Position numbers and translations under genes: made by a program
Source: Phoenix dactylifera
Lineage: Eukaryota; Streptophyta; Magnoliopsida; Arecales; Arecaceae
Reading direction: 5' to 3'
Assembly (NCBI RefSeq): GCF_009389715.1
Contig: NC_052397.1
Location: forward strand, 15,138,129-15,202,128
Length of the DNA: 64,000 bases
Shown: positions 2,541-63,752 of the stretch, piece by piece
Position numbering within the stretch: position 1 is the stretch's first letter
How the letters are laid out: every line of letters begins with the position of its first letter
The notes under the pieces: generated by a model
Databases searched by the model: none
What the model was told of the DNA's origin: nothing
The model's input: the letters and a program-made list of their open reading frames with translations, nothing else

Positions 2541-3608
2541 TCAGAAGGGCCGTAGGGAGTTTGCATAGGGAATCAAAACCGGATAACCTGAAGGGTAGCC
2601 TTTTTGCAATCCTTTCAACGCTCCTTTTTTGATATCGTAGCTATAGATAGAGCTATTCATCACAAAAACAAGCGTGTCGCTGTTGATCACTGTAAACGAG
2701 TGCACGTCTCCCGGACTTGTAAGCCCCATCTCCATCATGCTAACTTGATATTTTTCAACCCATACTATGCTCCCTTGATCCCGAGACATCACCCACAGCC
2801 TAAAAATTGAAGAACTCTGGCAACTTATCAAGCACAGAGATTTCTCACCCCACCTTGCGATCCGAATCTCATGGCAATCAGACGCCTTCGTTGCCACTCC
2901 CGGGATCGAAAGAATCTCGGAGCCCTCCTCTTCGATATCGAAGGCGACAATGTACGGAGCGGTATGCATGTAGGGCCCGCAAGTTGAAGCCAAATACACT
3001 GTACTGCCGCAAATAACCGGATACTCCAGTTGCAGATCTCTTGGACCTCCATTGACCGTCTTGTGGAACTTCCATGCACCGTCCGCCGAGGCGTAGACCC
3101 TGCACGAGTAAGGGGAGTGCCAATCTGGCGGCTTTGTGAGGCAGACCAGCTCGTAGCCTCTCGACTTCCGGTCGACGGCGACGCCGATGCATGACAGGTG
3201 GTGATGTTCTTCGCCGGTCGGCGGCGGGATGAAGCGAAGCGTGGCGATCGGAGCCACCGGATTGCAGACGCACAAGCTGCCTAAGATTCTAGACTTGTTT
3301 GAGCAGAGCACGAGACCGTTGGCTGAGGCCAGGACGACCCTTTCGGCGTGCTGCAAGAACCGGAGGCCTTCACTGGGTATGCCGGCATGAGGGTCGAGGA
3401 GAGTGAGGACGACGGAGCCATAGTATGGCCGAGTGAAGAAGCCCGAGTCGGCTTTGGTGTGACGAGATTGGGTAAGGAGGAAGTGATTGCATGCAGAGCG
3501 ACGCAGAACGCACCGACTGAGGGTTCGGAGCTTGGTGATGGCTTTCGCTGGGAGGAAGGAGAGGATCCCGGCGACTTCGTCCTCGGAGAGGCTCAATGGG
3601 GAGGCCAT
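2541..3608 (-). CDS. F-box protein, intronless
   Basis: Encodes a 355-residue protein. Residues about 6-50 form an F-box (LSLSEDEVAGILSFLPAK, then Leu, Ser and Cys positions typical of the Skp1-binding helix bundle). The remaining 300 residues look like an F-box-associated domain of beta strands with Trp- and Tyr-rich blocks. The family acts as the substrate-recruiting subunit of SCF E3 ubiquitin ligases; the target is unknown. The open frame extends 35 codons further upstream to 3713, but a good TATA box (TTATTTATAA at 3643-3652, TATA-like on the minus strand) lies between the two Met codons, so the start at 3608 is preferred. Length is normal for plant F-box/FBA proteins and the frame is intact. 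It is intronless, as many members of this fast-evolving family are. Confidence 0.85.
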   Translation of the reverse strand: MASPLSLSEDEVAGILSFLPAKAITKLRTLSRCVLRRSACNHFLLTQSRHTKADSGFFTRPYYGSVVLTLLDPHAGIPSEGLRFLQHAERVVLASANGLVLCSNKSRILGSLCVCNPVAPIATLRFIPPPTGEEHHHLSCIGVAVDRKSRGYELVCLTKPPDWHSPYSCRVYASADGAWKFHKTVNGGPRDLQLEYPVICGSTVYLASTCGPYMHTAPYIVAFDIEEEGSEILSIPGVATKASDCHEIRIARWGEKSLCLISCQSSSIFRLWVMSRDQGSIVWVEKYQVSMMEMGLTSPGDVHSFTVINSDTLVFVMNSSIYSYDIKKGALKGLQKGYPSGYPVLIPYANSLRPF

Positions 3609-3642
3609 GGCTGATGATGGTTCGCATGGCCAGGAGCTCGGG

Positions 3643-3652
3643 TTATTTATAA
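3643..3652 (-). promoter_or_regulatory. Probable TATA box of the F-box gene
   Basis: Reads TTATAAATAA on the minus strand, about 35-45 bp upstream of the Met at 3608. A transcript starting about 30 bp downstream would exclude the upstream in-frame Met at 3713 and would have a very short 5' UTR. Confidence 0.5.
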
Positions 3653-3820
3653 TATCCCGCGGATACTCCCAGTTCGAGTCGGAATCTAGTGATGCAGTCC
3701 GTGATTTCATCACCCACCGTCATACGTGGCAAGGGAATCGACAATCCCACTTAGAGTAGGAAAGTGATGCAAGTTTGTATTGATATCAACTACCTCCATC
3801 GTACGTGGCGAGGGATTCCG

Positions 3821-4320
3821 CCTTCGGTGAGAACCTAGGAAATATATTCCTTTCCTCTGTCTCGCTGGACCCTTTTATGGTTTTGATTAATGACTTTTTA
3901 TGGTTGATGACCGAATCTGGATATGATGCATTTAATCGTTTCTGCAATCTCAATTGTTGGTGTTTTCTGAATTGTTCAGCTTCATGCATAAACTATTATA
4001 GGCGCAATTTTTATGGCATTTTAGAAAATGATATCCATGATGCCTTCGGTAAGAACCTAGGAAATCTATTCCTTTCCCATCTCGCTGGACCCTTTTATGG
4101 TTTTAATTAATGGTCTTTTATGGTTGATGGCCGAATTTGGGTATGATGCATTTAGTCGTTTCTGCAATCTCAATTGTTGGTGTTTTCTGAATTGTTCAGC
4201 TTCATGCATAAACTATTATAGGCGCAATTTCTATGGCATTTTAGGAAATGATATCCATGATGCCTTCGGTAAGAACCTAGGAAATCTATTCCTTTTCCGT
4301 GTCTCGCTGGACCCTTTACT
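3821..4320. repeat. Tandem repeat, 220-bp unit, about 2.3 copies
   Basis: Copies begin at about 3821, 4042 and 4262, each with GCCTTCGGT(G/A)AGAACCTAGG. The first two are full length and differ by a few percent; the third stops after about 58 bp. The unit contains ATGCATTTA(A/G)TCGTTTCTGC and a long shared block. No protein domain is recognisable in it. It directly precedes the histone deacetylase fragment and may have arisen with it. Confidence 0.9.
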
Positions 4321-43300: not shown

Positions 43301-46300
43301 TAGTCGTCCAAATTCATCAAATGATGATTGGATTGGAGTTTTTTCTCCTGCAACTTTCAGGTAAAAATACTTCCTGTTGTAAAATAAGAACTATTTCTCT
43401 GAACGTATCTCCTAGAAATGGAAAAGAAGGATTAAAGTAACAAACAGCCAATTAAATTGTGTAGATTGCTTGTCAAAATCCAAAATCTAAAAAATTTGTC
43501 CAGGAGAAGGTGATGCTTTTGTATATTTAATGGTTGTTTTTTGTTTGTTTCAGGGAAGTGACTAATCTTTACATAAGTTGTAACTAATGTCAGAGAAGAA
43601 AAGGATTCATAAAGCCTAAATGATTCTAAAGAAATGATTCCAAGGATTCATAAAGCCTAAATGATTCTAAAGAAATGAGATTAGGTTTGTAGTAAAGGTT
43701 GCGATTCATTGTTAATCACAAAAGGGGATCTAATATGATTGCTTGCTAAAATTTCAGTGCCTCCATCTGTGAATCAGACGGTGTATGGGTGGAACCACCA
43801 TTGCTGTGCACTTCCCCTGTTAAGGTTCGTACTGACTTTTTAATTTTGTGTCCTTTTTTAATGTGAAAATCGAATTTACTATACAACAATGCTTTGAAAA
43901 TGTGACATATGTATAGAATGTGAACGTTGAAGACTCATGCATGTTTTGCAGTATCAATATGCCAATTACACAAGTGCTGGCTACTATAAAACAGGAAAAG
44001 GGACATTGAAGCTTCAGCTAATCAATCAGAGAGAGGACTTCTCCTTTGCATTATTTTCTGGTGGGCTCTCAAATGTATGTACCACAAGACTTTTAATTGT
44101 TTGGATACGTGAAAAGATTATAGTAAATTAACCATGCTGTTATGACTTTGCACTTAATTCTTCATGCTGTTAAAAAAGTTTAGCATGCTGATCCTTTCGG
44201 AAATTTATGTTTTTCATTTTGTCAAAAGATAGCAAGGGACCTCTTCCGAGATTAAAAATTCATATCAGGCACCATTTTCCATGAATTTGAAACGGGAATC
44301 CATTTTTTTTTGAATCTGTCCTGTTCTTTCTAAGATTTTAGAAAAAGGGCAATATTAATCATTTTTCAGGATAGCGATCAGTATTTAATGTTAGTCCTGG
44401 TTTGCTTCTTTAACTAATATTCTACAACATAGTAGAGTAAATTTTATTTCAAGTGGTGGAGGCTTTACGTCCTATGTCTATTAGTCGCTAAGCTATGTCA
44501 ACATGACCTGAATTTGCAGAAATGTGCATTCTTACACATCCAACTATTGATGCATTCTAACTTGGAATGTATGAAATATGTATCCACCGAAATGACAGCC
44601 AAAGATGATTGCTGTTTCGGAAACTGTAACTTTTGCAAATCCAAAGGCGCCTGTGTACCCACGGTTGGCTCATGGAAAGTCTTAGAATGAAGTAAGCATT
44701 CTTCATCCTTTTCTTTGTGAACTGAATGTTCCTAATTGCTAATACTGAATCAACTGAAGCAATCTTATTTTATTGCTTGCTCTCTTTTACTGTGTGGACC
44801 ACTGAAGTCCTGGAGTTCTGCAATCAATATAGACAACCATATGTTTAAATATGTAGATGTACACCATGCAAAGCATGACCTCAATTTTTCTTCCACTTCC
44901 AAATTCTGATGTGGTATTCCTATGTTTAGATGATATGAATGGAAAACAAATTTAAGTAATGACAACCAGTATTAAGCAATGCTTAGAGTTCAAGTATAAA
45001 ACTAATGTAGCATTCACAATAAACTTCCTATGAATCCTAAGATGGTAGCGAAAACCAAATTTACATTTGGGGGACTGTCAAACAAGACTTACCTACCAAG
45101 CTGGCTCAGCCATGTGGGTCTTAATTGGTTCCTGGTCCTGATCCAACACCTATGCAATTAGAATGTGTTTACACTAGATTTCCACTTAATCATACAGATT
45201 TTTTTTTTTATGATATACTCCTTTCCTTCAACTCATATATTTCACTCCCTCCACTGAATTGTGGCATGCATTGTGGTTTTTCCAATATCCAGATCATCAC
45301 AAATAGTTTTCCTTCCATTAATCCTCTATTACTGCCACTTCTAACTAACTCTCAAACATACTTGTTGCCCAGAGATGGTCACCCAAGAGGGGGGTGAATT
45401 GGGTGTTTTAAAACTTTTTGTCTAATTAAAACAAAACACACAAGTGTATGTGCAAAGGTGAAGCTAAAGTTGCAACCACAATCAAACGCAAACACACAAA
45501 GATTTATAGTGGTTCGGAGCTTCCACTGCTGCTACATCCACTCCCCAAACACGTTTGGGAATTTCCACTATAATCAGCGATTACAGTCCGGTAGTTTTGC
45601 GAGTGCACTACCCAACTCGTTGTTTTACCCCGGGCTAACAACGAACCCTACAATCCCCCAATTTAACCTAGGCTTGGGACGCCTATCCCTTGTTCCAAGT
45701 CCCTTGACTGGAACAAGCACAATAATCAAATGTTTTACAAAGATTTGAAAGCTCTTATGAAAGCAAATATATCAATGAAAAACAACAAAACCGGAAGAAC
45801 CCTTTTTGCCGTTGGAAGCGTGGGTGATGGTGGTTCTTCCGATGTGGATCACGTTGGCTTGAATGCTAGCTTTCAATGCCGAGTGGGAGTGAGTAGTTGA
45901 GCACGAAATCAGATGGGAAAGCTTGAATGCACTTGATTTCTCCTCTTGAAAGCACTAACTCCCTTGAACCTCTTTCTCTTTCTTCTCTCTTGAATGATCT
46001 TGTGTTTGGTTGGTTAGAAGTCGTTTTAAAGGCACTTAAAAGCTCCCTTTTATAGCCCTACAAGCAATAGATCCGTTAGACACAAAGAAATGACCGTTTG
46101 AAATTCAAACAAACCTGCAAAAGTGTGTCAGTCGCGTCCCAGGCGCTCCGGAGACGTCTCCGCTTCAACGCGAGACGTCTCGGCTGTATAAAAATTCTTT
46201 TGACGATGTTTGGAGTCGACTCGGCGTTTTACGGGGACGTCTCTGAAGAAGAACAGCTTGAATGCTTGTTTTTCTGTTTTTCTGAGAGAGTCGGCTCGGC

Positions 46301-49300
46301 ACTTTACGGGGACGTCTCGGGATGTTTGCGCTTTTTGCATGGGGACGACTCCGCGACCTTCGGAGACGACTCGCGCGCATCCCTTGAAATCGGCCTTTCT
46401 GCCGTCTCTGAGAGAGTCGACTCCGCAGAGTCAGGAGTCGACTCCGACCCTGCGAGACGCCTCGCCAGGTGCCGAGGACGTCTCCAGACGTGCCAATTCA
46501 TCCTTTTCGTGCCAAAGACGTCTCTGGGACAAACCGGAGACGTCTCGGCTGTCCCTGATCTGTTTTCTTCATCTCAAAAAATCTTCAAAAAATCCTTGAA
46601 AAATATGGGAACATGCCTTGACAATTCTTAACAAAATTCTTAGTTAAACACCTGAAATCCTCAAATAAATTGTTAATATAAAGGGAATTATACTCTAGTG
46701 TTTTGTATTCATCAAAATCCATTAGGGGGTCAACAATCTCCCCCTTTCTGATGATGACAAAACACTGAGTATATGCAAAATTCGAAATTTAAACATATAC
46801 ACAGTATTTGATCAGATGTACAAGTATTGTGTTTTGGTTAGAGCTAGATACAGTGTGCATAATTCAATATAGTCAACTTTCAGTTCTATCCTTATGCATA
46901 AGTATTGATCTTAGTAGCTCTTGAGCAATTTTGGCATATCAACTGAATTTGAATCAAGTTAAAATGTAAATTAATGAAATATTGATGCTAAAGACAATTG
47001 AAAGCTAAATACTTTTTGACTCTCCCTTTCTTTTCCAGAAGGACAATTGTCTTAAAGCCAATATTCTTCAATTTTATCTTTTCTTAATTCAACTTTTAAG
47101 TATTAGTGTAAACTTTGTATTTTGCATTCCATATATTGGTTCTATTCCATATATTGGTTCTACTCCCCCTTTTTGTCATCAACAATGAAGGGGACAAATT
47201 TTCCTTAGGTACCTAAAACGCAATTTCTATTAGAATTCAGCATATTACCATGAATCACTCAAGGATATTCAAGTTATGCTCCCTCTTTCCAAGTTATTTC
47301 TATTAATGAATTCAGCATTCATTTCACTCTCCCTTTGTTTTGGAATTCATTTCAGACCTTTCAAATGCAGTTATTACAGGTTGTGGTCCCCCTTTTTCAT
47401 ATGCATTGTCAAGTTGGGAAAGGAGTAATATTATTGCACATTGTTAAGTTTGATCATTCAAAGCATCAGAATTAGAAACATACACAGAGTTTGATACCAC
47501 AGAATTAGAAATATACACAAAGTTTCAAAAAGAAAGGTATGACCTTCATATTGTATTACAATCATTTGAAGTCATTACAAGTATTGATGGCTAATACAAA
47601 AGAAGTTTCAAATAAGCCTAGGGTTTTACAAAATGATGAACCCTAGATGTCTACAAAATGTCCCTCACCGGCGACCATGCTCAATAGCCCCAGCAGCAGC
47701 CTCTATAAACCCAGTTATTGCATCCATTAGGGTTTTAAATTGATTTCCCTGAGACTGATTGAAAGCTGTCACTAGTGCTTCAAATTCATGAGTTGCCCTT
47801 TCAATTCTTCCTCTAAGTTGGGCAGCCACAGTGCCCACATTGCCTCCAGGGCTCGTCAACTCTTGAAGACCATCCGATATGATCTTCAATTCAGCCTGTA
47901 TCTCAATTGATCTTAAGGTTTGGCTTGTTCCCACATGAACCAATTCTGACGCTGTAGCTTCTATCTGAGCTTTGATTTCCTTCAATTCTTGTAGGAGTGC
48001 TTCATGTGAGGTACGGATGGGAGCTAACTCAGCAGAGACTATTGATCTCATCTCTTCCCTCATCTGCTGGCATATCACAGATGCTAGGGTGTGCATCTGC
48101 TCATCTGATAGGGACAGTGATCCACTGACTGGAGGAGGCACTGAGGTGGATGGTCCAGCCGAGCTGGAAGGTACATCAGGAAAGGCCATAGGGCTATGTG
48201 GAGGAGAGAGGTGGTCAGGCTCCTGATGTGGGATCTCAGGCTCTATGGTTTGGGATTTTCTTTTAGGGGCCTTAACCCAAGACCCGTCTTTCTTGTGAAA
48301 CTCCATCCTATGTAATGTGCTCTCATTGTAGTAGTCAGTGTTTCTCAAAGGTTTTTCTGGCTCATTTTCAGGAATTGAAACCTTAAAATGTTTGAACAGT
48401 AGGGTGAAAACCATCCCATATGGTATGCTAAATCTGGAATACCTATGACATATGGAGATGTAGTTCAACATGAGCCTAGGGAGGTTTAGGGGAATCCCTA
48501 GCAAGATATGGTGCATAATAGCTAAGTCTCGCTCCGAAACGAAATCGAAGCGACCGATTTTTGGAAACAAGACCCGGTTAACTATGCTCAAAAGCAATCT
48601 CATTTCGGCATTGAGGTCTTGGGACTTAACTATGTCAAGAGGGCCGCAGTCCTCTCTTCCTAAAAGTAGGTTTAGGGCAATCTCCCTTTGGGGATGTGAG
48701 GTCGGAGCCTCACCGTATTTGGGGATTTGTAACAAGTTAGATAGGATGTCCTCATTAATTTCTATCAATGTGCCTCGGACATATCCGGTATACCCCGAGT
48801 CCCCTAAGGCCATATTGCTAAACATTTCTCTCACTAGGCCGGGATATGTTGACATATTTAGGGAACATAGGTGTTTCCAACCTTGGGCACGGAGTCTCTC
48901 TCCAATAGAGAACCCCTCACTAGCTAGAAACTGGAAATCTATATATATACCTGTGGTTACTGTGCGATTTGCACAGGAGAGGGTCACGGTTGGCGGAGCA
49001 ACCGGAGGAGGCGGCGCGGAGGGCTCTTCCCTCCGTTCCTCGTCGTCGTTTGCTACTCTAGAACGCCTCCCACCCGTTCGCCTAGCTTTCTTAGGTGCCA
49101 TGGATTGGAAATCTAGAAAAATGGGGAGAGATTTTGGTTCGGTTTGTGGTGGAGAGAAAATGGAGGCTAGGGTTTGTGTTTTCGTTGGGGACGAAAGAAG
49201 GTAGCTCGGGTCGGCTCGAGCTGTTTCGACCTAATTTAAAAACTTTCATTCGGTCCCCGAGACGTCTCCGCGACTAATGCGAGACGTCTTGCCGGGGGAC

Positions 49301-52300
49301 GTCTCTGTGATTTGCCAGAGACGTCTCCGGCACTGAAAAATTTCACAATGATTTCTATCTTTTCCCAATTTATTTTATTCAACCACAATAATCAGCGTGA
49401 TTTCTTTTGGTGAATATAGAGTGAGTTTGCTTGTGATCCTTTCCTTCAATAATACATCCTATAAAAGTTTGATAATGATTTTTTGAATTATCAATATTGA
49501 AATGAGGAATGTTTGACCAAATTTCGAATGCCTATGAAATAGGCTCTGAAAATATCTCCATGAAGAGTCCAAGGGAGGGTAACCATCCTCCGGAAAGTCA
49601 AACAATTCGTCATCTAACTTTGATAGATTCATGTTTTCACTTATTAGATACTAGGTTTGCTATTTGTGACCTTGAAGTGTATTATTAGTTTGAGTAGCAT
49701 TCACATGTATCTCTAGAGCTTACAAAGCATTGCCACAAGATGAATCCTCTGAAATTTACCAGTCTTAACTGTTAGTTTCATATTACAAGTTCAATCTATT
49801 TGCTAGGATCATACAAGCACAAAGCATTCCTTAAAAAATTGAACCTATCTTTACAAAGAGGCTTTGTAAAGATATCGGCCAATTGATTTTCAGTACATAC
49901 ATACTCAATCATCACATCATTTTTCAGCACATGATCCCTTATAAAGTGATGCCTAATCTCTATGTGTTTTGATTTAGAGTGTTGAACAGAATTTTTTGTT
50001 AAATTAATTGCACTTGTATTATCACATCTAATTGGTATGTTGTCCATTTTGATACCGAAATCTTCAAGTTGTTGCTTAATCCAAAGAACTTGGGCACAAC
50101 AGCTTCCAGCTGCAATGTACTCAGCCTCAGCTGTGGACAAGGCAACTGAATTCTGTTTCTTGCTAAACCAAGAAACCAAATTAGCACCCAAGAATTGACA
50201 TGTGCCACTTGTGCTTTTTCTGTCGAGTTTGCATCCGGCAAAATCAGCATCGGAATAAGCAATTAAATTTATATCAGATTGTTTAGAATACCATAAGCCT
50301 GCATTAGATGTCCCTACTAGATATCTGAATATTCTTTTAACAGCTTGCAAGTGTGATTCCTTAGGACATGCTTGGTATCTAGCACACATGCAAACACTGA
50401 ATAATATGTCTGGTCTACTAGCAGTAAGGTAAAGTAAAGAACCTATCATACCTCTGTACAATTTGCATTCTATACTTTTACCTTTTTCATCTTTGTCAAG
50501 CTTGCAACTTGAGCCCATGGGTCTGCTGATTTCCTTTGCATCCTTCATCTTGAATTTTTCCAACATTTCCTTGATGTATTTGGACTGACTGATGAAGATG
50601 CCTTCCTCTGATTGTTTTATTTGTAGCCCAAGGAAGAAGTTGAGCTCACCCATCATGCTCATTTCAAATTCTCCCTGCATAAGCTTAGCAAACTCTTGAC
50701 AAAGACTATCATTAGTAGCACCAAAAATTATATCATCCACATAAATTTGCACAAGCAATAAGTCATTCCCTTTTCTTTTAATGAAGAGGGTTTTGTCTAC
50801 ATTTCCTCTCTTAAACTTATTTTCAATTAGGAAATTACTTAATCTTTCATACCATGCCCTAGGGGCTTGCTTAAGTCCATACAATGCTTTATGCAATTTA
50901 AAAACATAATCTGGATGTAAGTGGTTCTCAAAACCTGGAGGTTGTCCTACATAAACTTCCTCCATTATATAACCATTTAAAAAGGCACTTTTTACATCAA
51001 TTTGATAGAGTTTGAAATCCATGAAGCATGCATATGCCAAAAGTAGTCTAATAGCCTCTAACCTAGCAACAGGAGCAAAAGTTTCATCAAAATCTATTCC
51101 TTCCTCCTGATTATATCCTTTGGCTACTAGCCTAGCTTTGTTTCTTATTACTATTCCATCTTCATCTAGTTTATTTCTATATACCCACTTGGTGCCTATA
51201 ATTGAAACATTAGGGGGCCTTTTCATTAGAGTCCAAACTTGATTTCGTTCAAATTGGTTTAATTCCTCTTGCATAGCATTCATCCAATTTTCATCTTTTT
51301 CGGCTTCTTCTAGTGATTTAGGCTCTATCTGTGAAACGAATGCAAGATAATTACTAGTGTTTCTTAAAGAGGATCTTGTCCTTATCCCTTGTGAAGGATC
51401 ACCAAGGATTAGATCCCTTGGATGACCATGTGCATACCTCCATTCCTTAGGAAGATCTTGATTTCTCGCTGGAGGTTGATCTTCTTCATCTTGCTGAATT
51501 GTATCTTCTTTGATTTCATCCTCATGTTGTTTGTCTTGTATGGAGAATTCCTTCATTCTGTCTTCAAGTATACCTGCATCACCATCTTCTTCTTTTCTAG
51601 AAGAATCTCCATTAGCTTAATCAAAAACAACATGAATGGATTCTTCAACAACGAGAGTTCTCTTGTTGAAGACCCTGTATGCTCTACTAGATGAGGAATA
51701 ACCTAAGAAGATCCCCTCATCTGATTTAGCACTAAATTTACTTAGATTGTCCTTTCCATTATTTAAAATAAAGCAGCGACAACCGAAAATATGAAAATAG
51801 CTTATATTAGGCTTCTTATTTTTCAACAACTCATAAGGTGTTTTCTTTAAGATAGATCTAACTAAAGCACGGTTTAAAATATGACATGTAGTATTTATTG
51901 CTTCAGCCCAAAAGTACTTTGGTAGATCCGATTCGCACAACATGGTACGAGCCATATCTGCTAGTGTGCGATTCTTCCTTTCTACCACCCCATTTTGTTG
52001 GGGTGTCCTAGGGGCCGAGAAATTGTGATTGATATCGTTTTCTTCACAAAATTTTTCAAAATGCTGATTTTCAAACTCGGTACCATGATCACTCCTAATT
52101 GCTTTTAGTTTTAGATTAAGTTCATTCGAAATCCTATTATGAAACTTGATAAAAGCGGGAAAGGACTCATCTTTGTGTGCAAGAAATGAAACCCATGTAA
52201 AACGTGAAAAATCATCAACAATTACAAGACCAAACTTCTTACCCCCTAGACTAGCAGTTCTAGTGGGTCCAAATAAATCCATGTGAATTAGTTCTAGGGG

Positions 52301-55300
52301 TTTTGATGTTGAGACTATGTTCTTAGACTTGAAGGAACTTCTTGTCTGTTTCCCTAGTTGACATGCAGCACAAATTTTGTTCTTTTCAAAGTCTATTTTT
52401 GGTAGTCCTTTGACTAGATCTTTTGTAATCAATTTAGAAATTAGATCCATGCTAGCATGCCCTAACCTACGATGCCATAACCAGCTAGTCTCATTGACTT
52501 TGGCATCCTTCATGGTGAGATCATCAAGATCTACCATATAAACATTTCCACGCCTATGTCCCGTAAGTATGATCTCATTGTCAACTGGACTACTAATTAT
52601 GCATAGTAAAGATTCAAAAGACACTTTAAAGCCCTTGTCACAAAATTGACTTATACTTAATAAATTATGTTTTAATCCATTAACTAACAATACATTGTCA
52701 ATAAATGAGGAGGATGATATGGAGATTTTACCAACGCCAATGATTTGACCTTTAGCATTGTCTCCAAATGTGACTACTCCTTTTGATTTCAAGGTGACGA
52801 AAAGGCTCTTGTCACCGGTCATGTGCCTTGAGCAACCACTATCAAGATACCACATTCTCTTTTTACTTCCGGCTGCAAGGCATACCTGCAAAATAATCAT
52901 GTGAAGCTCTTAGGTACCCAAGTTTTCTTGGGTCCTTCTTGGTTAGTGTAGTTGGTTCCCTTAGGCACCCACACTTTAGTTGTGTTTTTACTCTTTACAA
53001 ATGTATTCTTGTTAGTTTGAATCTTTCTTTGAATGCAAGAATAGGCTTTGTGTCCACTTTTCCCACAATGAAAGCATGTAGGTTTTTCAGTTTTGATATC
53101 TTTTGCTTTCACAAAAAAATTCTTTAGATATTTTTGTTGTTTGCTAGTTTTGTATCCTAATCCGGCTTTATTAAAAACAGCTCTTTGATTGGATAGAATG
53201 AGATTTAATTTTTCAGAGCTATGTGTAAATTTCTCCACAATTGGTTTGTACTTATGTACCTCATTTTTAAGATCCAAATTTTCTTTAGCCGATTCTTCCT
53301 TATCATTTTTAAGGGATTCAACATTTTGTGCAAGTGAGGTATTACTATTGAGTAGGAATTTAACTTTTAGATTTAATTCCTTAATGAGTGTTTTTGCCGT
53401 TTCATTTTCAATGCTAAGTTTTGAATTTTTATTCTCTAGGTCAATGGTGTTAACATTTTCAAAGCTCTCCTTTTCAATCAATAGGTTTTTAATGTCATCC
53501 TTTAGTTTTTGATTGGAGGCCTTTAATTCTTTATTTTTTGCTCCTAACATACTACAATCACTCATGAGCTCTTGGAAGGCTTCATATAATTCTTCTAAAG
53601 TAAAATCTGTAGTTGAGCTTTGACATACCTCATCGTCGTCGAATGCCATGAAACACAAGTTGGCGGTCTCTTCCTTCTCTTCCTCGGAGGAGGATGTGTC
53701 ACTATCATCCCAAGTTGCTTTCAACGCCTTCTTCTTCTTCTTTCCATAGTGCTTCTTCTGTTGAGGGCATTCAGAGCGGATGTGTCCCGGTCTCTTGCAA
53801 TCATAACATATGATTGGGTCTCTTTCTTTTTCTTTTTCCTTTTCCCAATCATTTCTCCCTCCAAACTTCTTTCTTGGGAAGGGTTTCTTTCTTCTCATGA
53901 ATTTTTTGAACTTCCTTACTATTAAACCCAAGTCTTCATCTTCACTTTCTTCTTCACTCTCACTGCTTTCTTCTTCACAAACACTTGAAGTAGCCTTGAG
54001 TGCGATTGTCTTCTTCTTTGGCACATCTTCTTCATGTTGCTTCATTGTGAGCTCATGCGTCATCAATGAGCCCAATAGTTGTTCAAGTGCCAATGTGTTG
54101 AGGTCTTTAGCTTCTACGATCGCCGTGACCTTCGCTTCCCAAGCTTTTGGCAAGGACCTGAGAATTTTACTCACAAGTTCTGGGTTAGTGTAAGATTTAC
54201 CCAAATTCTTTAGACCATTTATTATATCAGTGAAGCGTGTGAATATGCATGATATAGTTTCGTTGGGTTCCATCTTAAATAACTCATATTTGAGAACTAG
54301 AATGTTCACTTTAGACTCTTTGACTTAATTGGTACCCTCGTGGGTAACTTCAAGCCTATCCCATATTTCCTTGGCGGAACTACAGGTGGAGACTCTATTG
54401 AACTCATTTACATCTAGAGCACAAAATAATGAGTTCATGGCTCTAGCATTGAGTTGAACCATCCTACTATCATTCTCATCCCAATCCTCTTCAGGTTTGG
54501 AAACTTGAATGCCATTAACTATGTGATATGGTTCGTGTGGTCCTTTGATTATGACCCTCCACAAGGCATAATCTTGTGCTTGAATAAAAATTCTCATTCT
54601 AGTCTTCCAATAGGAATAATTTGTCCCATTGAAGAGTGGAGGTCTATTGGTAGCCTGCCCCTCAGCAGGAACATTGTTGAAGGGTGTTGCCATCTTGATC
54701 TTTGGCAAAGACGGTTAGGTCTTCAAGAAATACATAGAGCACCTGCTCTGATACCACTTGTTGCCCAGAGATGGTCACCCAAGAGGGGGGTGAATTGGGT
54801 GTTTTAAAATTTTTTGTCTAATTAAAACAAAACACATAAGTGTATGTGCAAAGGTGAAGCTAAAGTTGCAACCACAATCAAACGCAAACACACAAAGATT
54901 TATAGTGGTTCGGAGCTTCCACTGCTCCTACATCCACTCCCCAAACACCTTTGGGAATTTTCACTATAATCAGCGATTACAGTCCGGTAGTTTTGCGAGT
55001 GCACTACCCAACTCGTTGTTTTACCCCGGGCTAACAACGAACCCTACAATCCCCCAATTTAACCTAGGCTTGGGACGCCTATCCCTTGTTCCAAGTCCCT
55101 TGACTGGAACAAGCACAATAATCAAATATTTTACAAAGATTTGAAAGCTCTTATGAAAGCAAATATATCAATGAAAAACAACAAAACCGGAAGAACCCTT
55201 TTTGCCGTTGGAAGCGTGGGTGATGGTGGTTCTTCCGATGTGGATCACGTTGGCTTGAATGCTAGCTTTCAATGCCGAGTGGGAGTGAGTAGTTGAGCAC

Positions 55301-58300
55301 GAAATCAGATGGGAAAGCTTGAATGCACTTGATTTCTCCTCTTGAAAGCACTAACTCCCTTGAACCTCTTTCTCTTTCTTCTCTCTTGAATGATCTTGTG
55401 TTTGGTTGGTTAGAAGTCGTTTTAAAGGCACTTAAAAGCTCCCTTTTATAGCCCTACAAGCAATAGATCCGTTAGACACAAAGAAATGACCGTTTGAAAT
55501 TCAAACAAACCTGCAAAAGTGTGTCAGTCGCGTCCCAGGCGCTCCGGAGACGTCTCCGCTTCAACGCGAGACGTCTCGGCTGTATAAAAATTCTTTTGAC
55601 GATGTTTGGAGTCGACTCGGCGTTTTACGGGGACGTCTCTGAAGAAGAACAGCTTGAATGCTTGTTTTTCTGTTTTTCTGAGAGAGTCGGCTCGGCACTT
55701 TACGGGGACGTCTCGGGATGTTTGCGCTTTTTGCATGGGGACGACTCCGCGACCTTCGGAGACGACTCGCGCGCATCCCTTGTGTTGAGATTAATGGGCA
55801 CAAACTCACTGTATCCGGCTTACCAATTAAGAATTGGACTCATTCAGACATTCCATCAAACACATCACAGGCATGAAAAGATAAGCACAAAGACACCAAA
55901 TTTACGTGGTTCGGCAGCAAGTGCATACATCCACGGGGAGGAGGAGCAATCCACTATATCAATCTTCCCAATAGGGTACAAACGTAGATACATAAGAGCC
56001 CAAAATATGAACTGCCAAATGATCACAATAGGAGGCAAGATAAAACAACTATAAAGCAAGAAACAACCTGATCGGATCACCCTTCTGCAGCCACAATGAT
56101 AGATCAAAAGTGTAGTATGCAAATCAACCTTTCTACGGCTCCAATGGTAGATCAAATGAGTATCAAAAACATACCTTCCCTTGTTGCATTTACTGTGAAC
56201 AGCAAAGAAGAAAGAGGCTCACGGAAACAGGGAAGTCACAGGAAGAAGCCACGGTTGAAGAAGGGAAGAAGGAAGAAAAGCCTCCAGCGAGTGAAGACAG
56301 AAGGGAACCCAAGTTGAATGTTGCCAGGAGACCGAGAGCGCACGGGAGGATGAAGAAGATGGGTGCGGCGGCGGCTGAAATCCCTTTCACCCTAAAAACA
56401 AAACAAAACCCTTCATCCCACGGGAAAAGAGGTAACATGTACCTTTTATATAATGAAATGTCATTTTGCAAATAGGTCCCTCTCAAAACCAATATTTGGA
56501 GCAAAGTCCAAAATAGTCAACAATCCTCGTCCTTGCGACAAATTATGTACCTATCATCAAATATGGATTGATAAAATAACCTCCTCTTCACCACAAGCCC
56601 GGAAGGGCATTAACAAGTGCTCACACCAATCAAGTTCAGGAAAGTCCTGAACTTAACTGCTGTGATTGGTTTAGTGAACATATCAGCCGGATTATGAGCA
56701 GTGTAGATTTTCTGAATCCGGACATCACTATTCTCCACCAAATCTCTGATGAAGTGATACCTGACATCTATATGCTTAGTGCGTTCGTGATACATCTGAT
56801 CTCTGGCAAGATGCAAAGCACTTTGACTGTCACAATTAATATCCAAACGGTCCTGCTCGAGACCCAAATCCTGTACTAGTCCTCTTAACCAAATAGCTTC
56901 CTTTGCTGCCTCTGTCAACGCCATATACTCTGCTTCTGTAGTAGACAAAGCAACTGTAGGCTGCAAAGTAGCCTTCCAACTGACTGCACAACCAGAGAGA
57001 GTAAATACATATCCGGTTAATGACCTCCTCCTGTCCAAATCACTAGCATAATCTGAATCAGAAAATTCTGTAACAGTGCAATTACTCTATGCGGAGAATA
57101 CCAATCCCAAATTGGAAGTGCCTTTTAGATATCTAAGTATCCATTTCACAGCTGACCAGTGAGCCTTTCCAGGCTATCCATGTATCTGCTTACTACGCTT
57201 ACTGCCTGTGAAATATCAGGTCGAGTGCAGACCATTGCATACATGATGCTACCTACTGCACTTGCATATGGCACTCTGGACATATATCTCTCCTCATCCT
57301 CAGTCTAGGGACAGAGTGTGGCAGATAATTTGAAATGACTGGCAAAAGGAGTAGTGACTGGCTTGACCGTGGACATACCAAATCTATCCAAGACTTTCTT
57401 AATATATCCATGCTGAGTAAGAAAAAGTCTTCCCAACTGCCTGTCATGACTGATCTCCATCCCAAGTATTTTCTTTGCCGGTCCAAGATCCTTCATCTCA
57501 AATGCAGTACTGAGCTCAGCTTTCAGATTTCGGATGATTGATATATCCTTGGCTGCTATCATCATATCATCCACATACAGTAATAAGTAACAAAAGGATC
57601 CATCTGAAAACCGCTGGTGATATACGCAACTGTCATATGGAGATCTGTTGTATCCATGGTCGACCATAAACTTATCAAATTTGCGATACCACTGTCTTGG
57701 AGACTGCTTGAGACCATATAATGATCTCTTGAGCAAACATACATGATCTTCCTTGTCTGGAACCTCAAAACCAGGTGGTTGTTGCATATAAATCTGTTCC
57801 TCTAAATCACCGTGAAGAAAAGCTGTTTTAACATCTAGCTGTTCCAACTCTAAATTCTGAGAAACAACTAAGGCAAACAACACACGAATAGAAGAGTGTT
57901 TAACTACAGGAGAAAATATTTCCTTATAGTCAATTCCCTCCCGTTGACAATAGCCCTTAGCTATTAACCTGGCCTTATATCTAAAATCCTGATGACTGGC
58001 TCCCTCTTTATTCTTGAAGATCCATTTGCAGCCTATTGCCTTCTTGCCCTCTGGTAATCTGACTAATTTCCAAGTCCGATTCTTCTCTAAAGATTGTAAT
58101 TCTTCAACCATAGCCATGGTCCATTGTTCAGCCTGCGGACTACTAATAGCCTCCTGATATGTGGTCGGCTCATCACCAATAGTGTCTGCAATGCTCAGAG
58201 CATAATAAACTAACCCAGCACAAGCTGAATCCTCAAAACCATACCTTTGTGGTGTTCTGATCTGACGCCTGGGTCTACGAGTGGCAATGCTATCAATCTG

Positions 58301-61300
58301 ATCCTGACCTTCCATGGTAACCTCCTCCTGAGTCTGTATCTCTGCATCTGTCTGCTGTTGCTGCTCATTCAGAATTAAAGTATCTTCATTTGCCTGCTGC
58401 TGCTGTGATCTGATAGTCTGATCAATATTCATAACAGTCCTATCTATCTGATCCTGACCCTGATCTCTCTCAGAAGAACTTGGTTGTAGCTGCCTTAAAG
58501 GAGTAGCTATCTCATGAAATGTCACATCCCTACTGACTAAAAAATCTTGGGATCCAGGCTCTGTGCACCATAATCTATAGCCTTTTACCCCAGATGCGTA
58601 TCCAAGAAATACGCACTTCTTAGCCCTAGGGTCCAACTTTCCATCTCTTACATGTGCATAAGCTGGACACCCAAAGACTCTGAGTACTGAATAGTCTGTA
58701 GGTCTTCCTGTCCACATTTCTTCCGGAGTTTTCATGCCCAATGCTGATGCTGGAGATCGGTTTATAATGTAGCAGGCTGTGTGAGCGGCCTCTGCCCAAA
58801 AATCTCTAGTTAATCAGAACTAGATAGCATAGATCTGACTCTCTCAATTAGTGTGCGATTCATGCGTTCTGCCACACCATTCTGTTGAGGTGTACCCACT
58901 GTGGTTCTGTGTCTGACAATGCCCTCTAATTTGCAAAAGTCATTAAACTCAGTAGAACAAAATTCTAATCCATTGTCAGTTCGGAAGGTTTTCAACTTCC
59001 TATCAGTATGCCTCTCGACCATAGCCTTCCACTTCTTGAACGTGTCAAACACATCACTCTTAATTCTGATAGTGTATATCCAGACTTTGCGGGAGCAGTC
59101 ATCAATAAAAGTGAGTAAATACCTAGATCCACCCTTGGATGTAATTGGAGCAGGCCCCCATAGGTCAGAATGAATATAATCTAATATACCAGCTGTCCTG
59201 TGCACGCCTGTAGAAAAACTGACCCTGTGTTGTTTTCCGAACACACAATGCTCACAGAATCCAAGTGCACCAACCTTCTGACCACTTAGCAAACCACGTC
59301 TGCTCAGCTCCTGTAAACCTTTGTCTGAGATGTGGCCCAATCTCTGATGCCACAGGTGTGTTAACTGCTCAGTAGATGACTGTACTGCTAAAGCCTGTCC
59401 AACTATTGTACTACCATCCAAATAGTAAAGGGTCCCACACAATTTCCCTTTCAATAAAGTCAATACTCCTTTATTGATAGTTATTGATCCTCTACCCCAT
59501 CTGCCCTCGAAACCTGCACTATCGAAAGCATGTACTGAGAGAAGGTTTCTCTTTAGTTGAGGAACATATCTGACATCGTCCAAAGTCACCACAGTGTTTG
59601 CATTAGATTTAATTTGAACTGTACCAACACCTTCCACTTTGCAAATGCCATCGTCTCCAAGAAGAACGGTGCCCCCCTCACATGATCTAAAAGAAGAGAA
59701 CCATTTCTTATGGGGTGTCATGTGGAAAGATGCTCCAGAGTCCACAATCCAAGTATCAGGATGACTGACACTGCAAGCAGCTGTAAATACTGCATCATTA
59801 TCATTACTGTTGTGACCTGCTGATGAAACTGCAACCGTTGCCGAGTCTGAAACGGTTCCTTTATCCTTTTGTTCCCTCTCTTTCTTAGACTGTAGTAGTC
59901 TACATTCTGATTTCCAGTGGCCTGGCTTCTTACAATAGTGACAAACACCTGGTCTTCTAGTCCTAGACTTTGATCTGGTTTTGGATTTGCTTCTACCTTG
60001 TCCACCTTTCTTCTGCTCATCTCTACCTCTAACTATAAGTCCTTGAGCTGGAGTCTGAACTTGATGTTGTAGCTGTACTTTCAATCTAAGCTCATTGGAT
60101 AACAAAGTAGCTTCTACCTCTTCAAGACTTATTGTCTCTTTTCCATAGAGCATAGTAGTAGTAATATGCTCAAAGGACTTAGGCAATGAGTAGATGAGGA
60201 TCAAAGCCTTGTCTTCTTCATCTACTTCAACACCAATATTTGATAAATCAAGTAGGAGCTTATTATACTCATCCAAGTGATCTTTGAGTGAAGTCCCTTC
60301 TGCCATACGAAATGTGTGCAACTTTCCCCTCAAATACAATCTATTAGTAAGGGATTTTGCCATATATAGACTCTCCAATTTTTCCCATACTCCCTTAGCT
60401 GTATCAAGATCCACAACATTGCGCAGGACTTTATCACTCAAACCCGAAAACAAAGTTCCTAGTGCTCTCTCATTAATCTCTTCTTTGACAGCCTCATTAT
60501 CTCCTGGGATTGCATCCATACCCTTGAGGGCTTTTGCTACACCCTCTTTAACCAACAAGTATTTCATTCTTACCTTCCATAGTGAGAAGTCTCCTATGCC
60601 ATCAAATACAACCACTTCATGCCTTATGGTAGTGGAATGAGAAACAGAAGCCGAATCGTTAGCCCTAGATGAATTTTGTTGCCCAACAGTAGCCATAGCT
60701 CTGATACCAATTGTTGAGATTAATGGGCACAAACTCACTGTATCCGGCTTACCAATTAAGAATTGGACTCATTCAGACATTCCATCAAACACATCACAGG
60801 CATGAAAAGATAAGCACAAAGACACCAAATTTACGTGGTTCGGCAGCAAGTGCCTACATCCACGGGGAGGAGGAGCAATCCACTATATCAATCTTCCCAA
60901 TAGGGTACAAACATAGATACATAAGAGCCCAAAATATGAACTGCTAAATGATCACAATAGGAGGCAAGATAAAACAACTATAAAGCAAGAAACAACCTGA
61001 TCGGATCACCCTTCTGCAGCCACAATGATAGATCAAAAGTGTAGTATGCAAATCAACCTTTCTACGGCTCCAATGGTAGATCAAATGAGTATCAAAAACA
61101 TACCTTTCCTTGTTGCATTTACTGTGAACAGCAAAGAAGAAAGAGGCTCACGGAAACAGGGAAGTCACAGGAAGAAGCCACGGTTGAAGAAGGAAAGAAG
61201 AAAAGCCTCCAGCGAGTGAAGACAGAAGGGAACCCAAGTTGAATGTTGCCAGGAGACCGAGAGCGCACGGGAGGATGAAGAAGATGGGTGCGGCGGCGGC

Positions 61301-63752
61301 TGAAATCCCTTTCACCCTAAAAACAAAACAAAACCCTTCATCCCACGGGAAAAGAGGTAACATGTACCTTTTATATAATGAAATGTCATTTTGCAAATAG
61401 GTCCCTCTCAAAACCAATATTTGGAGCAAAGTCCAAAATAGTCAACACCTTGAAATCGGCCTTTCTGCCGTCTCTGAGAGAGTCGACTCCGCAGAGTCGG
61501 GAGTCGACTCCGACCCTGCGAGACGCCTCGCCAGGTGCCGGGGGCGTCTCCAGACGTGCCAATTCATCCTCTTCGTGCCAGAGACGTCTCTGGGACAAAC
61601 CGGAGACGTCTCGGCTGTCCCTGATCTGTTTTCTTCATCTCAAAAAATCTTCAAAAAATTCTTGAAAAATATGGGAACATGCCTTGACAATTCTTAACAA
61701 TATTCTTAGTTAAACACCTGAAATCCTCAAATAAATTGTTAATATAAAGGGAATTATACTCTAGTGTTTTGTATTCATCAAAATCCATTAGGGGGTCAAC
61801 AATACTCCTTGCAATTATTAGCACATTAATCTCAGTGGTTCAACATCCTCAGCTCTGCGACTCCTACCTGATGCACATGGTCTCCCTGGTTTACATTAAG
61901 TTCAACATACAAGTGCATGATTACTCTTATACTGGAATTTGTTTTCAGATTCATATTTAAATGACAATCACATTACACTCAAAAGGGGAATGTCACTTCA
62001 TAGACTTAATAATCCTATTCAAGACATCTCTGTCTATCCACAAGTCATGTTTTGCAGAAGATTCAAGAAGATGAAAATGATATATTTGGGGATCTTTGGT
62101 TTGAAACCCTTGATTCTTCCCGTATTATGACTAAAGTTCCATGTGCTCTGTTTGGGCCCAACTAATTTTCAAACCTTTAGGTCTCCTAAAATTTCCTTCC
62201 ATAGAATTGCCATTCATTTATTCCTCAACAAACAGCACATGCACTAAAGAACACCCTCTTGGATATCTATAGTTCATGCGTAAAAAAGGGAAAGATAGGA
62301 CCACTAAATTGGCTCCAAAAGCCGCTTGTCCTCAAGCGCTCTTGCATCTCTTCATGTACCTACTAAGTGTTTTTTTTTTTTAAAAAGGGTGGCCCGATGC
62401 TAAGGTTTGCCATCTTAGTACCGGACCCCATACCGGTGCCACACTAGTACTATGTTGGTACGGTACGGTACGGTACAAAGTCTTTTCAGCATACGAAGTA
62501 TTGGTACACCTCCCGTAACGAATACTAGAACTGAACCAATAGGTACGGTACGCCAAGACTCAACTTCTTGAAATCCATCTCTATGTTTATTAAACTATAT
62601 TTTCTGCCTATTATACTACTCTTCCTTATATGTACGAGCCCAGCGCCCCACCCAAAAAAACATGGTTTTGTGAATTTAATCGTCCTCATTCTGTATTCAC
62701 TAAATAAGATCCAAATCTCTAATCTTTTGTCCCATTTTTGACTCTAAAATTACATGTCATATATAACATAATAAAACATGGTCCTTTTTCTCTATCTGTT
62801 GAAATTTATCATATTGACTCAATGCTCTCATCTATTATAGAGATTGGACTTCGGGTTTTTTATTCTATTTGTTATTTTTCATTTGTGGTACTATACCATG
62901 TTGACTTAGTGCTTTCACCTATTATAATGAATAGACTCTAGGGTAGTTAAGCAGCATTGTTAATCTTTTCCTAGCAACATGATAGTGCCTGTTTTCTCCT
63001 CATAAGTAACCTCTTTGAGATTAGGGGTAAATTAAACTTACACCCAATAGTTTGAAAACCTACATTTTTCCTCTAAGATTTTGTTTTCGAACACTTGAAC
63101 CCATAACTTAATAGAGCATTAGTTAAACCATTAATCTTAAATGAGACCCAAATACCCCATCAAAAAAAATTTAAAAATAACCAAAATAACCTTAAGTGAC
63201 ATAACAGCCACCCAAGGATATAAGAGAACATGTGTATGCTCCTCCCCACCCAAAGGCACTTTCAACTCTTCACATAAGGTAAACAATTTCATTAAGGTTC
63301 GGCGTCTCAGTGTCGGACCTCGTACCGGTGCCACACTAGCACTGTGTTGGTATGGTACGATACAGAATTTTTTTAGCATACCGAATGTCAGTACGCCATC
63401 CGTACTGGGTACTAGTACCGAATTGATATGGTATGCCCCGTACCGCCCGGTTCGGCCCGGTATGGCGAACCATGGGTTTCACTAATGCTGTTGATTTAAC
63501 TGGTTATAGGTATAGATTTTACAAACTATTGGATGTAAGTGTAAGAAACGTAAACCTCAAAGGGATTTTTGTAATTTACTCTATTTTTTTAAGGTTATGA
63601 CTTCAGAAATTTGTGATGCCAGATGGCTGTAACATGGACAAGTGGATACAGTATCAATGAGGCAGAACCTTTTGTTGAATGGGGTCTACAAGGAGAAGCT
63701 CAAATCCGTTCCCCAGCTGGAACATTGACTTTCAGTCGTAGCAGCATGTGTG
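40345..63752 (+). CDS. Purple acid phosphatase (PAP1/PAP24/PAP27-like), 5' part, with in-frame stop
   Basis: Exons seen: 40345-40515, 43269-43360, 43758-43824, 43952-44074, 44599-44691 and 63623-63752; the gene runs past the window. The protein starts with a signal peptide ([19 protein letters not shown]) and the N-terminal domain of the large plant PAPs. Blocks include [63 protein letters not shown] and [17 protein letters not shown]. The metal-binding catalytic domain would lie downstream. Some members of this group are annotated as probably inactive; they are secreted or wall-associated metallophosphatases. At 44683-44685, where relatives read GKSWNEM, the Trp codon is TAG, ending the protein after 179 residues. 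The next intron is 18.9 kb, swollen by nested Copia elements. Either the gene is a pseudogene in this haplotype or there is a base error. Confidence 0.88.
43601..43678. repeat. 41-bp tandem duplication in a phosphatase intron
   Basis: A unit beginning AAGGATTCATAAAGCCTAAA occurs at 43601 and again, identical over about 37 bp, at 43642. Recent replication-slippage type duplication in the intron between exons 2 and 3. Confidence 0.9.
44692..45357 (+). other. Intron of the phosphatase gene, left of element A
   Basis: Normal AT-rich intron sequence between exon 5 and the target duplication of element A. No gene. Confidence 0.6.
45358..45362. repeat. Left target-site duplication of element A (ATACT)
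   Basis: ATACT directly precedes the left LTR and is repeated at 61802-61806 after the right LTR. Confidence 0.9.
46047..46054 (-). promoter_or_regulatory. LTR TATA box of element A
   Basis: TATAAAAG on the minus strand, immediately downstream of the palindrome cluster; the other LTR copy has the same site. It marks the probable U3/R region. Confidence 0.6.
46149..46550. repeat. Palindrome cluster in U3 of element A
   Basis: About fourteen copies or near copies of a 10-bp palindrome in 400 bp. Examples are GAGACGTCTC (46151, 46172 and near 46538) and GAGTCGACTC (46213 and twice between 46410 and 46445), with mixed forms such as GAGACGACTC. The centre is ACGT or TCGA, so every copy carries CpG. 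The same cluster is in the right LTR, where element B cuts through it. Confidence 0.9.
46736..46747 (-). other. Polypurine tract of element A
   Basis: AAAGGGGGAGAT on the minus strand, directly next to the 3' LTR; this is the plus-strand primer site. Related purine-rich copies occur at about 47020, 47163, 47279, 47328 and 47387, a multiplication known from Sireviruses. Confidence 0.85.
47665..49101 (-). CDS. Accessory reading frame of element A (478 codons)
   Basis: An open frame on the element's coding strand between RNase H and the 3' LTR, where Sireviruses carry their extra or env-like gene. The N-terminus is basic ([15 protein letters not shown]). A middle region with [18 protein letters not shown] and [19 protein letters not shown] recalls the plant-transposon-protein domain seen in many LTR elements. 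Residues about 330-470 look like a coiled coil (regular Leu, Ile, Glu and Gln spacing). I see no clear membrane segment or signal peptide, so a true envelope role is doubtful. The frame is open from start to end. Four copies of the LTR palindrome lie about 155-235 bp upstream of its start. Confidence 0.7.
   Translation of the reverse strand: MAPKKARRTGGRRSRVANDDEERREEPSAPPPPVAPPTVTLSCANRTVTTGIYIDFQFLASEGFSIGERLRAQGWKHLCSLNMSTYPGLVREMFSNMALGDSGYTGYVRGTLIEINEDILSNLLQIPKYGEAPTSHPQREIALNLLLGREDCGPLDIVKSQDLNAEMRLLLSIVNRVLFPKIGRFDFVSERDLAIMHHILLGIPLNLPRLMLNYISICHRYSRFSIPYGMVFTLLFKHFKVSIPENEPEKPLRNTDYYNESTLHRMEFHKKDGSWVKAPKRKSQTIEPEIPHQEPDHLSPPHSPMAFPDVPSSSAGPSTSVPPPVSGSLSLSDEQMHTLASVICQQMREEMRSIVSAELAPIRTSHEALLQELKEIKAQIEATASELVHVGTSQTLRSIEIQAELKIISDGLQELTSPGGNVGTVAAQLRGRIERATHEFEALVTAFNQSQGNQFKTLMDAITGFIEAAAGAIEHGRR
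49256..49335. repeat. Internal palindrome cluster upstream of the accessory frame
   Basis: Four copies of the GACGTC-centred palindrome of the LTR (GAGACGTCTC, GAGACGTCTT, GGGACGTCTC, GAGACGTCTC) in 80 bp. A TTTAAATT stretch lies between the cluster and the start of the accessory frame, an arrangement like that in the LTR (cluster, TATA, transcript). Confidence 0.85.
49796..54708 (-). pseudogene. gag-pol region of element A (fossil)
   Basis: Copia-type order on the minus strand. Gag opens near 54700 with [18 protein letters not shown]. The CCHC knuckles are at about 53770-53810 ([14 protein letters not shown]) and 53035-53080 ([14 protein letters not shown]). The protease [11 protein letters not shown] is near 52830, followed by integrase with its HHCC-like zinc site and DDE core at about 52500-51900. 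Reverse transcriptase YVDD is near 50740. RNase H ends near 49800 with LADIFTKPL. Broken, with about three interruptions; domain motifs are still well preserved, in line with the young LTRs. Confidence 0.93.
54745..54756 (-). other. Primer binding site of element A (tRNA-iMet)
   Basis: TGGTATCAGAGC on the minus strand, two bases inside the 5' LTR, complementary to the 3' end of initiator tRNA-Met as in most plant Copia elements. Confidence 0.95.
55778..55782. repeat. Left target-site duplication of element B (CCTTG)
   Basis: CCTTG precedes element B and is repeated at 61448-61452; the uninterrupted LTR of A has a single CCTTG at the same place. Confidence 0.95.
55783..56522 (-). repeat. 3' LTR of element B (left copy)
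   Basis: 740 bp with TG...CA ends (plus strand TGTTGAGATT ... AGTCAACA). It differs from the right copy by about five or six substitutions and one 4-bp length change. Confidence 0.95.
56523..56535 (-). other. Polypurine tract of element B
   Basis: Purine-rich AAGGACGAGGAT on the minus strand, directly bordering the 3' LTR. Interrupted by one C, so weaker than that of A. Confidence 0.6.
56610..60690 (-). pseudogene. gag-pol region of element B (fossil)
   Basis: Minus-strand order: Gag near 60600-60000 ([20 protein letters not shown]), CCHC knuckle at about 59905-59945, and protease [10 protein letters not shown] near 59735. Then come a GAG-pre-integrase and integrase core ([30 protein letters not shown]) at about 59350-58830, reverse transcriptase with YVDD near 57570, and RNase H ending near 56640 with ADMFTKPI. 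Broken, with about two or three interruptions. Confidence 0.92.
60698..60709 (-). other. Primer binding site of element B (tRNA-iMet)
   Basis: TGGTATCAGAGC on the minus strand, two bases inside the 5' LTR. Confidence 0.95.
60712..61447 (-). repeat. 5' LTR of element B (right copy)
   Basis: 736 bp, ends TG...CA, nearly identical to the left copy at 55783-56522. Confidence 0.95.
61802..61806. repeat. Right target-site duplication of element A (ATACT)
   Basis: Matches 45358-45362 exactly and fixes the outer borders of element A. Confidence 0.9.
62385..62560 (+). repeat. GGTACGGTAC-type dispersed repeat, copy 1
   Basis: Contains ACCGGTGCCACACTAGTACT, TTGGTACGGTACGGTACGG and CAGCATACGAAGTATTGGTA; shares its order of words with the copy at 63295-63475. 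Confidence 0.8.
63295..63475 (+). repeat. GGTACGGTAC-type dispersed repeat, copy 2
   Basis: Contains ACCGGTGCCACACTAGCACT, TTGGTATGGTACGATACAG and CCCGTACCGCCCGG. Same orientation as copy 1 and about 75% alike by eye. Non-coding. Confidence 0.8.

Follow-up and report, generated by a model that had tools for sequence, protein, structure and literature searches.

An ENV-type Sirevirus in the date palm genome

The stretch analysed here, referred to as the window, comprises 64,000 nucleotides of the Phoenix dactylifera contig NC_052397.1 (forward-strand positions 15,138,129 to 15,202,128), and all positions are counted within it. On its minus strand lies an ENV-type Sirevirus, a retrotransposon whose long terminal repeats (LTRs) carry an array of short palindromic sites in their U3 part (Table 1). 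The initial annotation had placed this array in the U3 of a Sirevirus-like LTR and its end upstream of the LTR TATA box, and both placements held: the LTR measures 1,373 bp, and 96 bp separate the last site from the TATA box CTATAAAAG. Nested in the 5' LTR is a copia-type element that divides the same array there; its own LTRs are 740 bp long and 98.8% identical, and a 5-bp duplication, CCTTG, accompanies it. The two LTRs of the Sirevirus differ at 13 positions in all.

The hallmarks of the genus were taken from the text of Bousios et al. 2010 (PMC2829016). In the window element, the polypurine tract (PPT) octamer AGGGGGAG followed by AT/TG stands at the 3' LTR, where the junction reads AAAGGGGGAGATTG, and extra PPT are found in the linker after the ENV gene, with one further exact octamer in 47163-47174 and two close matches, at 47387 and 47279 (that text gives an average of four additional linker copies for Sireviruses). 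The junction between the 5' LTR and the primer binding site, CA/A(T or G)TGG followed by TATCAGAGC in the genus, reads CAACAAGTGGTATCAGAGC here. The conserved TATA box is present as CTATAAAAG, and the C-rich integrase signal CACCCCCCTC is found close to the LTR end. The reverse transcriptase open reading frame (ORF) was 93% identical to a Phoenix dactylifera protein over 74% of its length.

Table 1. Features of the window discussed in the text (TSD, target site duplication; aa, amino acids)
Feature	Position	Strand	Remarks
U3 array, 14 GAGWCGWCTC sites in seven pairs	46151..46546	-	identified by motif count against shuffles
Starts of paired sites	46151+46172, 46213+46234, 46288+46309, 46342+46363, 46414+46435, 46454+46475, 46515+46537	-
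Linker cluster of the same motif	49208..49327	-	sites at 49318, 49296, 49281 and 49259, degenerate site at 49208
3' LTR, 1,373 bp	45363..46735	-	TSD ATACT at 45358-45362
LTR TATA box CTATAAAAG, TATAAA	46049..46054	-	96 bp downstream of the last array site
Terminal PPT and Sirevirus AT/TG attachment site	46737..46749	-	by the text of PMC2829016
Third ORF (ORF3, ENV position), 478 aa, PF20167 Transposase_32	47665..49101	-	start codon 106 bp past the linker cluster
Reverse transcriptase ORF (RVT_2)	49796..51556	-
Integrase ORF	51617..52900	-
gag ORF with zinc knuckle	52897..54309	-
5' LTR, first piece	54759..55782	-	8 of 14 array sites, at 55547-55768
5' LTR, second piece	61448..61801	-	6 of 14 array sites, at 61480-61612; TSD ATACT at 61802-61806
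Nested copia-type element	55783-61447		splits the 5' LTR inside the U3 array, between the fourth and fifth pair
Tandem duplication, 220 bp, 95% identical	3860-4299		nearby ORF at 2541-3713 with F-box-associated domains

The U3 array consists of paired copies of one motif

In the interval 46130-46560, the motif GAGWCGWCTC (W = A or T) was matched 7 times exactly, 13 times with at most one mismatch and 14 times with at most two, whereas in 500 dinucleotide shuffles these three counts averaged 0.018, 0.30 and 2.1 and never exceeded 1, 3 and 8, respectively. The array starts 189 bp into the LTR and spans 396 bp, with a CpG observed/expected ratio of 1.40 compared to 0.50 in the whole window. Of the 'about fourteen 10-bp palindromes' in the initial annotation, the number of sites was thus correct and far above shuffles, but only 6 of the 14 are perfect palindromes (shuffle mean 0.53, maximum 4). 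The alternation of ACGT- and TCGA-centred forms that it described was not recovered, the centres by rising coordinate being ACGT, ACGT, TCGA, ACGT, TCGG, ACGT, ACGA, ACGA, TCGA, TCGA, ACGC, ACGT, ACGT and ACGT.

The sites were then tallied position by position over the 14 U3 sites and four sites of a second cluster in the linker before ORF3 (18 in total, the degenerate site at 49208 being excluded). The CG in the centre did not vary, nor did G at position 3 or C at position 8; positions 1-2 were mostly GA, and the base beside the central CG was A or T save on one side of two sites. Since this base varies between A and T, ACGT and TCGA represent the same A/T position in its two states, and the asymmetric sites (GAGACGACTC in the window, GAGTCGTCTC in other copies) indicate that either base is allowed on each side.

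Abundance was evaluated by counting the genome (773,078,369 bases in 2,391 contigs), with each motif read backward as the control. The TCGA form GAGTCGACTC occurred 274,308 times (about once per 2.8 kb; control, 393) and the ACGT form GAGACGTCTC 15,016 times (control, 383). In place of the proposed 'two-centre design' there is a single motif whose A/T position is free. Any binder of GAGTCGACTC would face a very large sink of sites. The bZIP factors suggested for the ACGT cores would cover the minority form alone and were ruled out as the common binder because TCGA sites dominate.

The 14 sites form seven pairs, in which the spacing is 21 bp in six and 22 bp in one (p = 0.0017 for random placement, with the spacing chosen afterwards between 10 and 59 bp at a tolerance of 1). 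Throughout the genome, 175,630 GAGWCGWCTC pairs with spacers of 4-34 bp were counted (control, 8), 116,322 of them with a spacer of exactly 11 bp (control, 0).

Layout and motifs are conserved among family members

For the family of the window element (family A), 40 of 2,144 first-look candidates were scored, and the 38 lying outside the window were fetched. All 38 LTR places bear an array of 13-18 sites with a nearly identical gap string, most copies having about four sites more than the window element. Because the places were located through their similarity to the array, the count reflects a conserved layout and not prevalence; the array and its spacing are, in any case, not unique to one element, a condition on which the initial annotation had made its reading depend. 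Arrays of a second family, family B, were found in the flanks of L027, L039 and L041 (27, 24 and 23 sites), with exact GAGTCGACTC at 24 of 27 and 19 of 24 sites. Families A and B align at 77-79% over approximately 170 bp downstream of the array and elsewhere by short matches only. Their arrays do not align, and the distance from array end to TATA-like box is steady at 96 bp in family A and 90 bp in each of the subfamilies B1 and B2.

A degenerate 21-bp array was also observed in the flank of L030. This array (in the oriented flank) and that of L055 keep a 21-bp register with variant motifs (GAGTCGACCC) or near-identical units, and look like other or decaying families.

Within arrays, identity among motifs was 0.83-0.97 and that among whole 11-bp spacers 0.40-0.45; the inner seven spacer bases were near random (0.31-0.36, compared to 0.27-0.30 expected by composition). 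Between copies, sites were defined by a motif match in one of the two sequences, which somewhat favours motif identity. The conservation of palindromes above their surroundings among diverged members, which the initial annotation had put forward for checking, was clear in four of five such comparisons (motif, spacer and flank identity: 95.4, 70.4 and 78.0% between the diverged subfamilies B1 and B2, where 22 of 24 sites kept their register; 98.3, 81.2 and 89.2% for L011-L013; 98.3, 85.4 and 89.2% for L017-L013; 99.2, 94.4 and 94.8% for window-L017), and only weak in the fifth (90.8, 84.6 and 89.3% for window-L013). Over 38 rows of family A (L013 excluded), variability was 1.3% in motifs, 2.6% in spacers and 3.6% in flanks, and 1.1% in motifs vs 2.4% in spacers when CpG was left out (p = 0.022). 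CpG decay was seen in 29 of 670 motif cells (4.3%), 80 of 1,448 spacer cells (5.5%) and 39 of 410 flank cells (9.5%), with no sign in family A of special protection or special mutability at motif CpGs.

Arrays of sister families are in helical phase

The gaps between sites were analyzed in another eight stretches, which all lie within one 165-kb part of contig C1; six loci were pooled, using gaps of 25-100 bp only and excluding the linker stretches L051 and L053. In the pool, 47 of 48 longer gaps were within 0.2 turn of whole helical turns (40% expected), and when each gap length was counted once, 16 of 17 were near whole turns, compared to 31 of 76 integers expected (binomial 6e-6). The locus L054, with 22 sites over 754 bp, showed a resultant of 0.92 at 10.5 bp and 9 of 9 gaps in phase. 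The gaps alone leave the period loose, values of 10.0-10.6 being nearly equal; site positions peaked at 10.3-10.55 in the LTR arrays, at 11.8 in linker L051 and at 10.25 in linker L053.

Such regularity might have arisen as a side effect when a 21-bp unit underwent tandem duplication and gene conversion, with the spacing itself unselected. Clear duplicate units do exist (the spacers of the second and third window pairs resemble each other, and L055 has near-identical units), and the number of sites varies from 13 to 18 among family A copies; however, the inner spacers are near random, odd-turn gaps that are not multiples of 21 are present (32, 51, 53, 73 and 93), so that the arrays are not a 21-bp repeat with lost units, and the pooled resultant was 0.34 at 21 bp vs 0.81 at 10.5 bp. 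We regard this explanation as very unlikely.

Another explanation is that the palindromes act in RNA, where U3 transcripts would fold into hairpins through pairing of self-complementary sites and feed small RNAs, making the array mainly a structural or silencing feature. The U3 strand indeed folds far better than shuffles (-174.9 vs -140.5 kcal/mol, z = -6.6, 0 of 100 shuffles as low), and an excess of small RNAs over structured palindrome clusters of maize Sireviruses is described in the text of PMC10760457. On the other hand, RNA pairing needs neither fixed 11-bp spacers nor whole-turn gaps, and sites whose A/T position breaks the palindrome (GAGTCGTCTC, GAGACGACTC) are retained across copies. 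As the main role of the array, RNA folding appears unlikely to us, although DNA-bound dimers and RNA folding may both be true.

The linker cluster and ORF3

In the window, the gaps of the linker cluster are 22, 15, 22 and 51 in element orientation. At least four linker sites were found in 13 of the 38 fetched stretches; 12 of these 13 copies have gaps of 22, 16, 22 and 51, and ORF3 starts 106 bp after the cluster in 11 of them and 107 bp after it in one, the start not being found in the remaining one. The stretches L051 and L053, taken as linkers of other families, hold gaps of 22, 16, 22 and 21, 16, 22, respectively. The linker sites, lying 106 bp ahead of ORF3, probably act as an internal promoter for it. 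Between cluster and ORF3 (49101-49208) there is also AAACCCTAG, which we take to be a telo-box-like word, and similar words occur in L051 and L053; telo-box words are frequent in the vicinity of plant transcription starts.

Purifying selection acts on ORF3. The ratio of nonsynonymous to synonymous substitution rates (dN/dS) was 0.28 in the 55 pairwise comparisons among 11 uninterrupted copies (the window and 10 of the 38 fetched loci), a set that omits loci without an uninterrupted ORF3 of at least 440 aa, and it was lower in residues 1-250 (0.20) than beyond (0.38). A count by eye found no stop in 70 of 89 scored copies, that of the window included (89 scored among 9,774 candidates). The predicted structure was a poor model (mean predicted local distance difference test score of 55.7) that matched no structure in fold searches at E <= 0.001; domain searches of ORF3 found no DNA-binding domain.

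By analogy with VANC proteins, which according to the text of PMC5735166 attach to tightly packed short motifs in the non-coding parts of their own elements, the binder might be encoded by the element itself, in that ORF3 (PF20167) would bind the U3 and pre-ORF3 sites and counter silencing. The presence of site clusters in both LTRs and directly before ORF3, together with the conservation of ORF3 and in particular of its N-terminal part, is consistent with this. Against it stand the poor model without structural match or DNA-binding domain, and four elements in Table 3 of PMC2829016 that have the LTR motif yet no ENV gene. We consider an ORF3-encoded binder rather improbable. A specific version, in which ORF3 dimers would line up on one face of the DNA over the phased GAGWC palindromes of the U3 and those before their own gene, as a nucleoprotein array that keeps the LTR promoter open against silencing, is a long shot; if it were true, the change from CGG to GAG half-sites would represent co-evolution of a protein and its sites.

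A proposed model of one-face dimer binding

The reading we favour, and hold to be reasonably probable, is that the array is a helically phased set of dimer-binding sites that works as the LTR enhancer and as the ORF3 promoter. Each 10-bp site, an inverted repeat of the half-site GAGWC, would take one dimer, formed by a DNA-binding protein that is most likely a transcription factor of the host; the binding, the host origin and activation are all inferred. Sites are paired two helical turns apart, with longer runs as well in sister families, and blocks are spaced by whole numbers of turns, so that the dimers would share one face of the DNA, where cooperative binding could take place 90-96 bp upstream of the LTR TATA box. 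Before ORF3, sites of the same kind would act in its internal promoter. Spacers that are random in sequence but fixed in length, gaps of whole turns and the steady TATA distance fit dimers on one face better than RNA hairpins.

Several observations weigh against this model. Regarding the phasing, the six pooled loci come from that single 165-kb stretch of one contig, and several of them are homologous (68-92% identical) and share gaps; the phasing was not significant in L055 (p = 0.16) or in the long form of family A (p = 0.60), and in the window itself 5 of 5 inter-pair gaps were in phase yet with p = 0.075, and p = 0.19 in a second test, so that the phasing of the window array on its own is not significant and no more than suggestive. 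Linker clusters carry out-of-phase gaps of 15-18 bp. The two LTRs of the window element differ at 3 of 140 palindrome bases, 2 of 262 array spacer bases and 8 positions elsewhere, the palindromes being no less divergent than the rest, although these numbers are too small to weigh. Finally, no known plant factor with a GAGWCGWCTC site was identified.

The observation made in the initial annotation is thus partly confirmed and its interpretation partly supported, with a regulatory role being the best reading of the sequence. Its description did not include the pairing at 21 bp, the linker cluster, the copy of the array in the other LTR or the abundance of the motif in the genome.

Comparison with known systems

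Outside the date palm genome, a pattern scan of IMG/VR gave two records judged by eye to be unrelated: L002, a stretch of low complexity, and L001 (1-1430), a phage-like viral contig. The 21-bp repeat of L001 includes GAGACGTCTC; it looks protein-coding, probably repeating seven residues at a time, and is a chance look-alike of the array. Protein-guided scans returned no relative. Among the matches listed in a literature search for the 10-mers, no title named a plant LTR retrotransposon and one named a retrotransposon, the fluke element PwRn1 (PMC2582038), with one occurrence; among the matches listed for palm and Sirevirus literature, no title concerned these palm arrays.

In the maize Sireviruses (Bousios et al. 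2016, via the text of PMC10760457), palindrome clusters likewise lie in the cis-regulatory part of the LTR, but their motif is CACCGGACNNNGTCCGGTG and they are interpreted as giving rise to RNA structure and small RNAs. The target arrays of VANC proteins in VANDAL transposons, as described in the text of PMC5735166, share with the palm array the dense packing of short motifs in non-coding parts; they differ in belonging to a DNA transposon, in their directional and AT-rich motif and in that their binder is demonstrated, whereas here it is only predicted.

The closest counterpart is the repeated motif (RM) of Sireviruses described in the text of PMC2829016. Like the RM boxes, the palm sites are palindromic, CpG-rich and present in many U3 copies before the TATA box, and they recur before the ENV gene (here the linker cluster). 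The zero-spacer centres resemble those of Vitis (CGGTCGACCG) and Usier (GTCGGACGTCCGAC). With 14 sites, the array exceeds the minimum of eight palindromic copies in the upper LTR half by which RM boxes are recognized there, and its CpG ratio is that of a CpG-island-like cluster; RM boxes begin 200-400 bp into the LTR. The core CGG-CCG signature, also lacking in Tnd-1, is not present, the half-site here being GAGWC, of which the WC part is shared because the left half is CGGWC in 9 of the 13 elements of Table 3. By sequence, the array is the repeated motif published for Sireviruses in a new form, with GAG-CTC in place of CGG-CCG half-sites, which bears out the view of the initial annotation that it is of the Sirevirus palindromic kind with a different sequence. 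The zero-spacer CGG type itself, CGGWCGWCCG, occurred 1,292 times in the date palm genome and 1,719 times in the backward control; a modest excess is still possible, because the control contains no CpG whereas the word contains three and CpG is at about half of expectation. Only one pair within 100 bp was seen by eye among the 50 places listed, and so no CGGWCGWCCG arrays were observed.

The palm array further differs from the RM boxes in having both A and T states inside one array, and in its strict 21-bp pairing and helical phasing, a geometry on which the text of PMC2829016 is silent; judged against that text, its novelty is provisional. The function of the Sirevirus repeated motifs was left open in that text, and fixed-length random spacers with whole-turn gaps, which point to dimers on one face of the DNA, would make the question of function simply testable. 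The change from CGG to GAG half-sites between the published RM boxes and the palm array would offer a natural experiment in the co-evolution of a factor and its sites.

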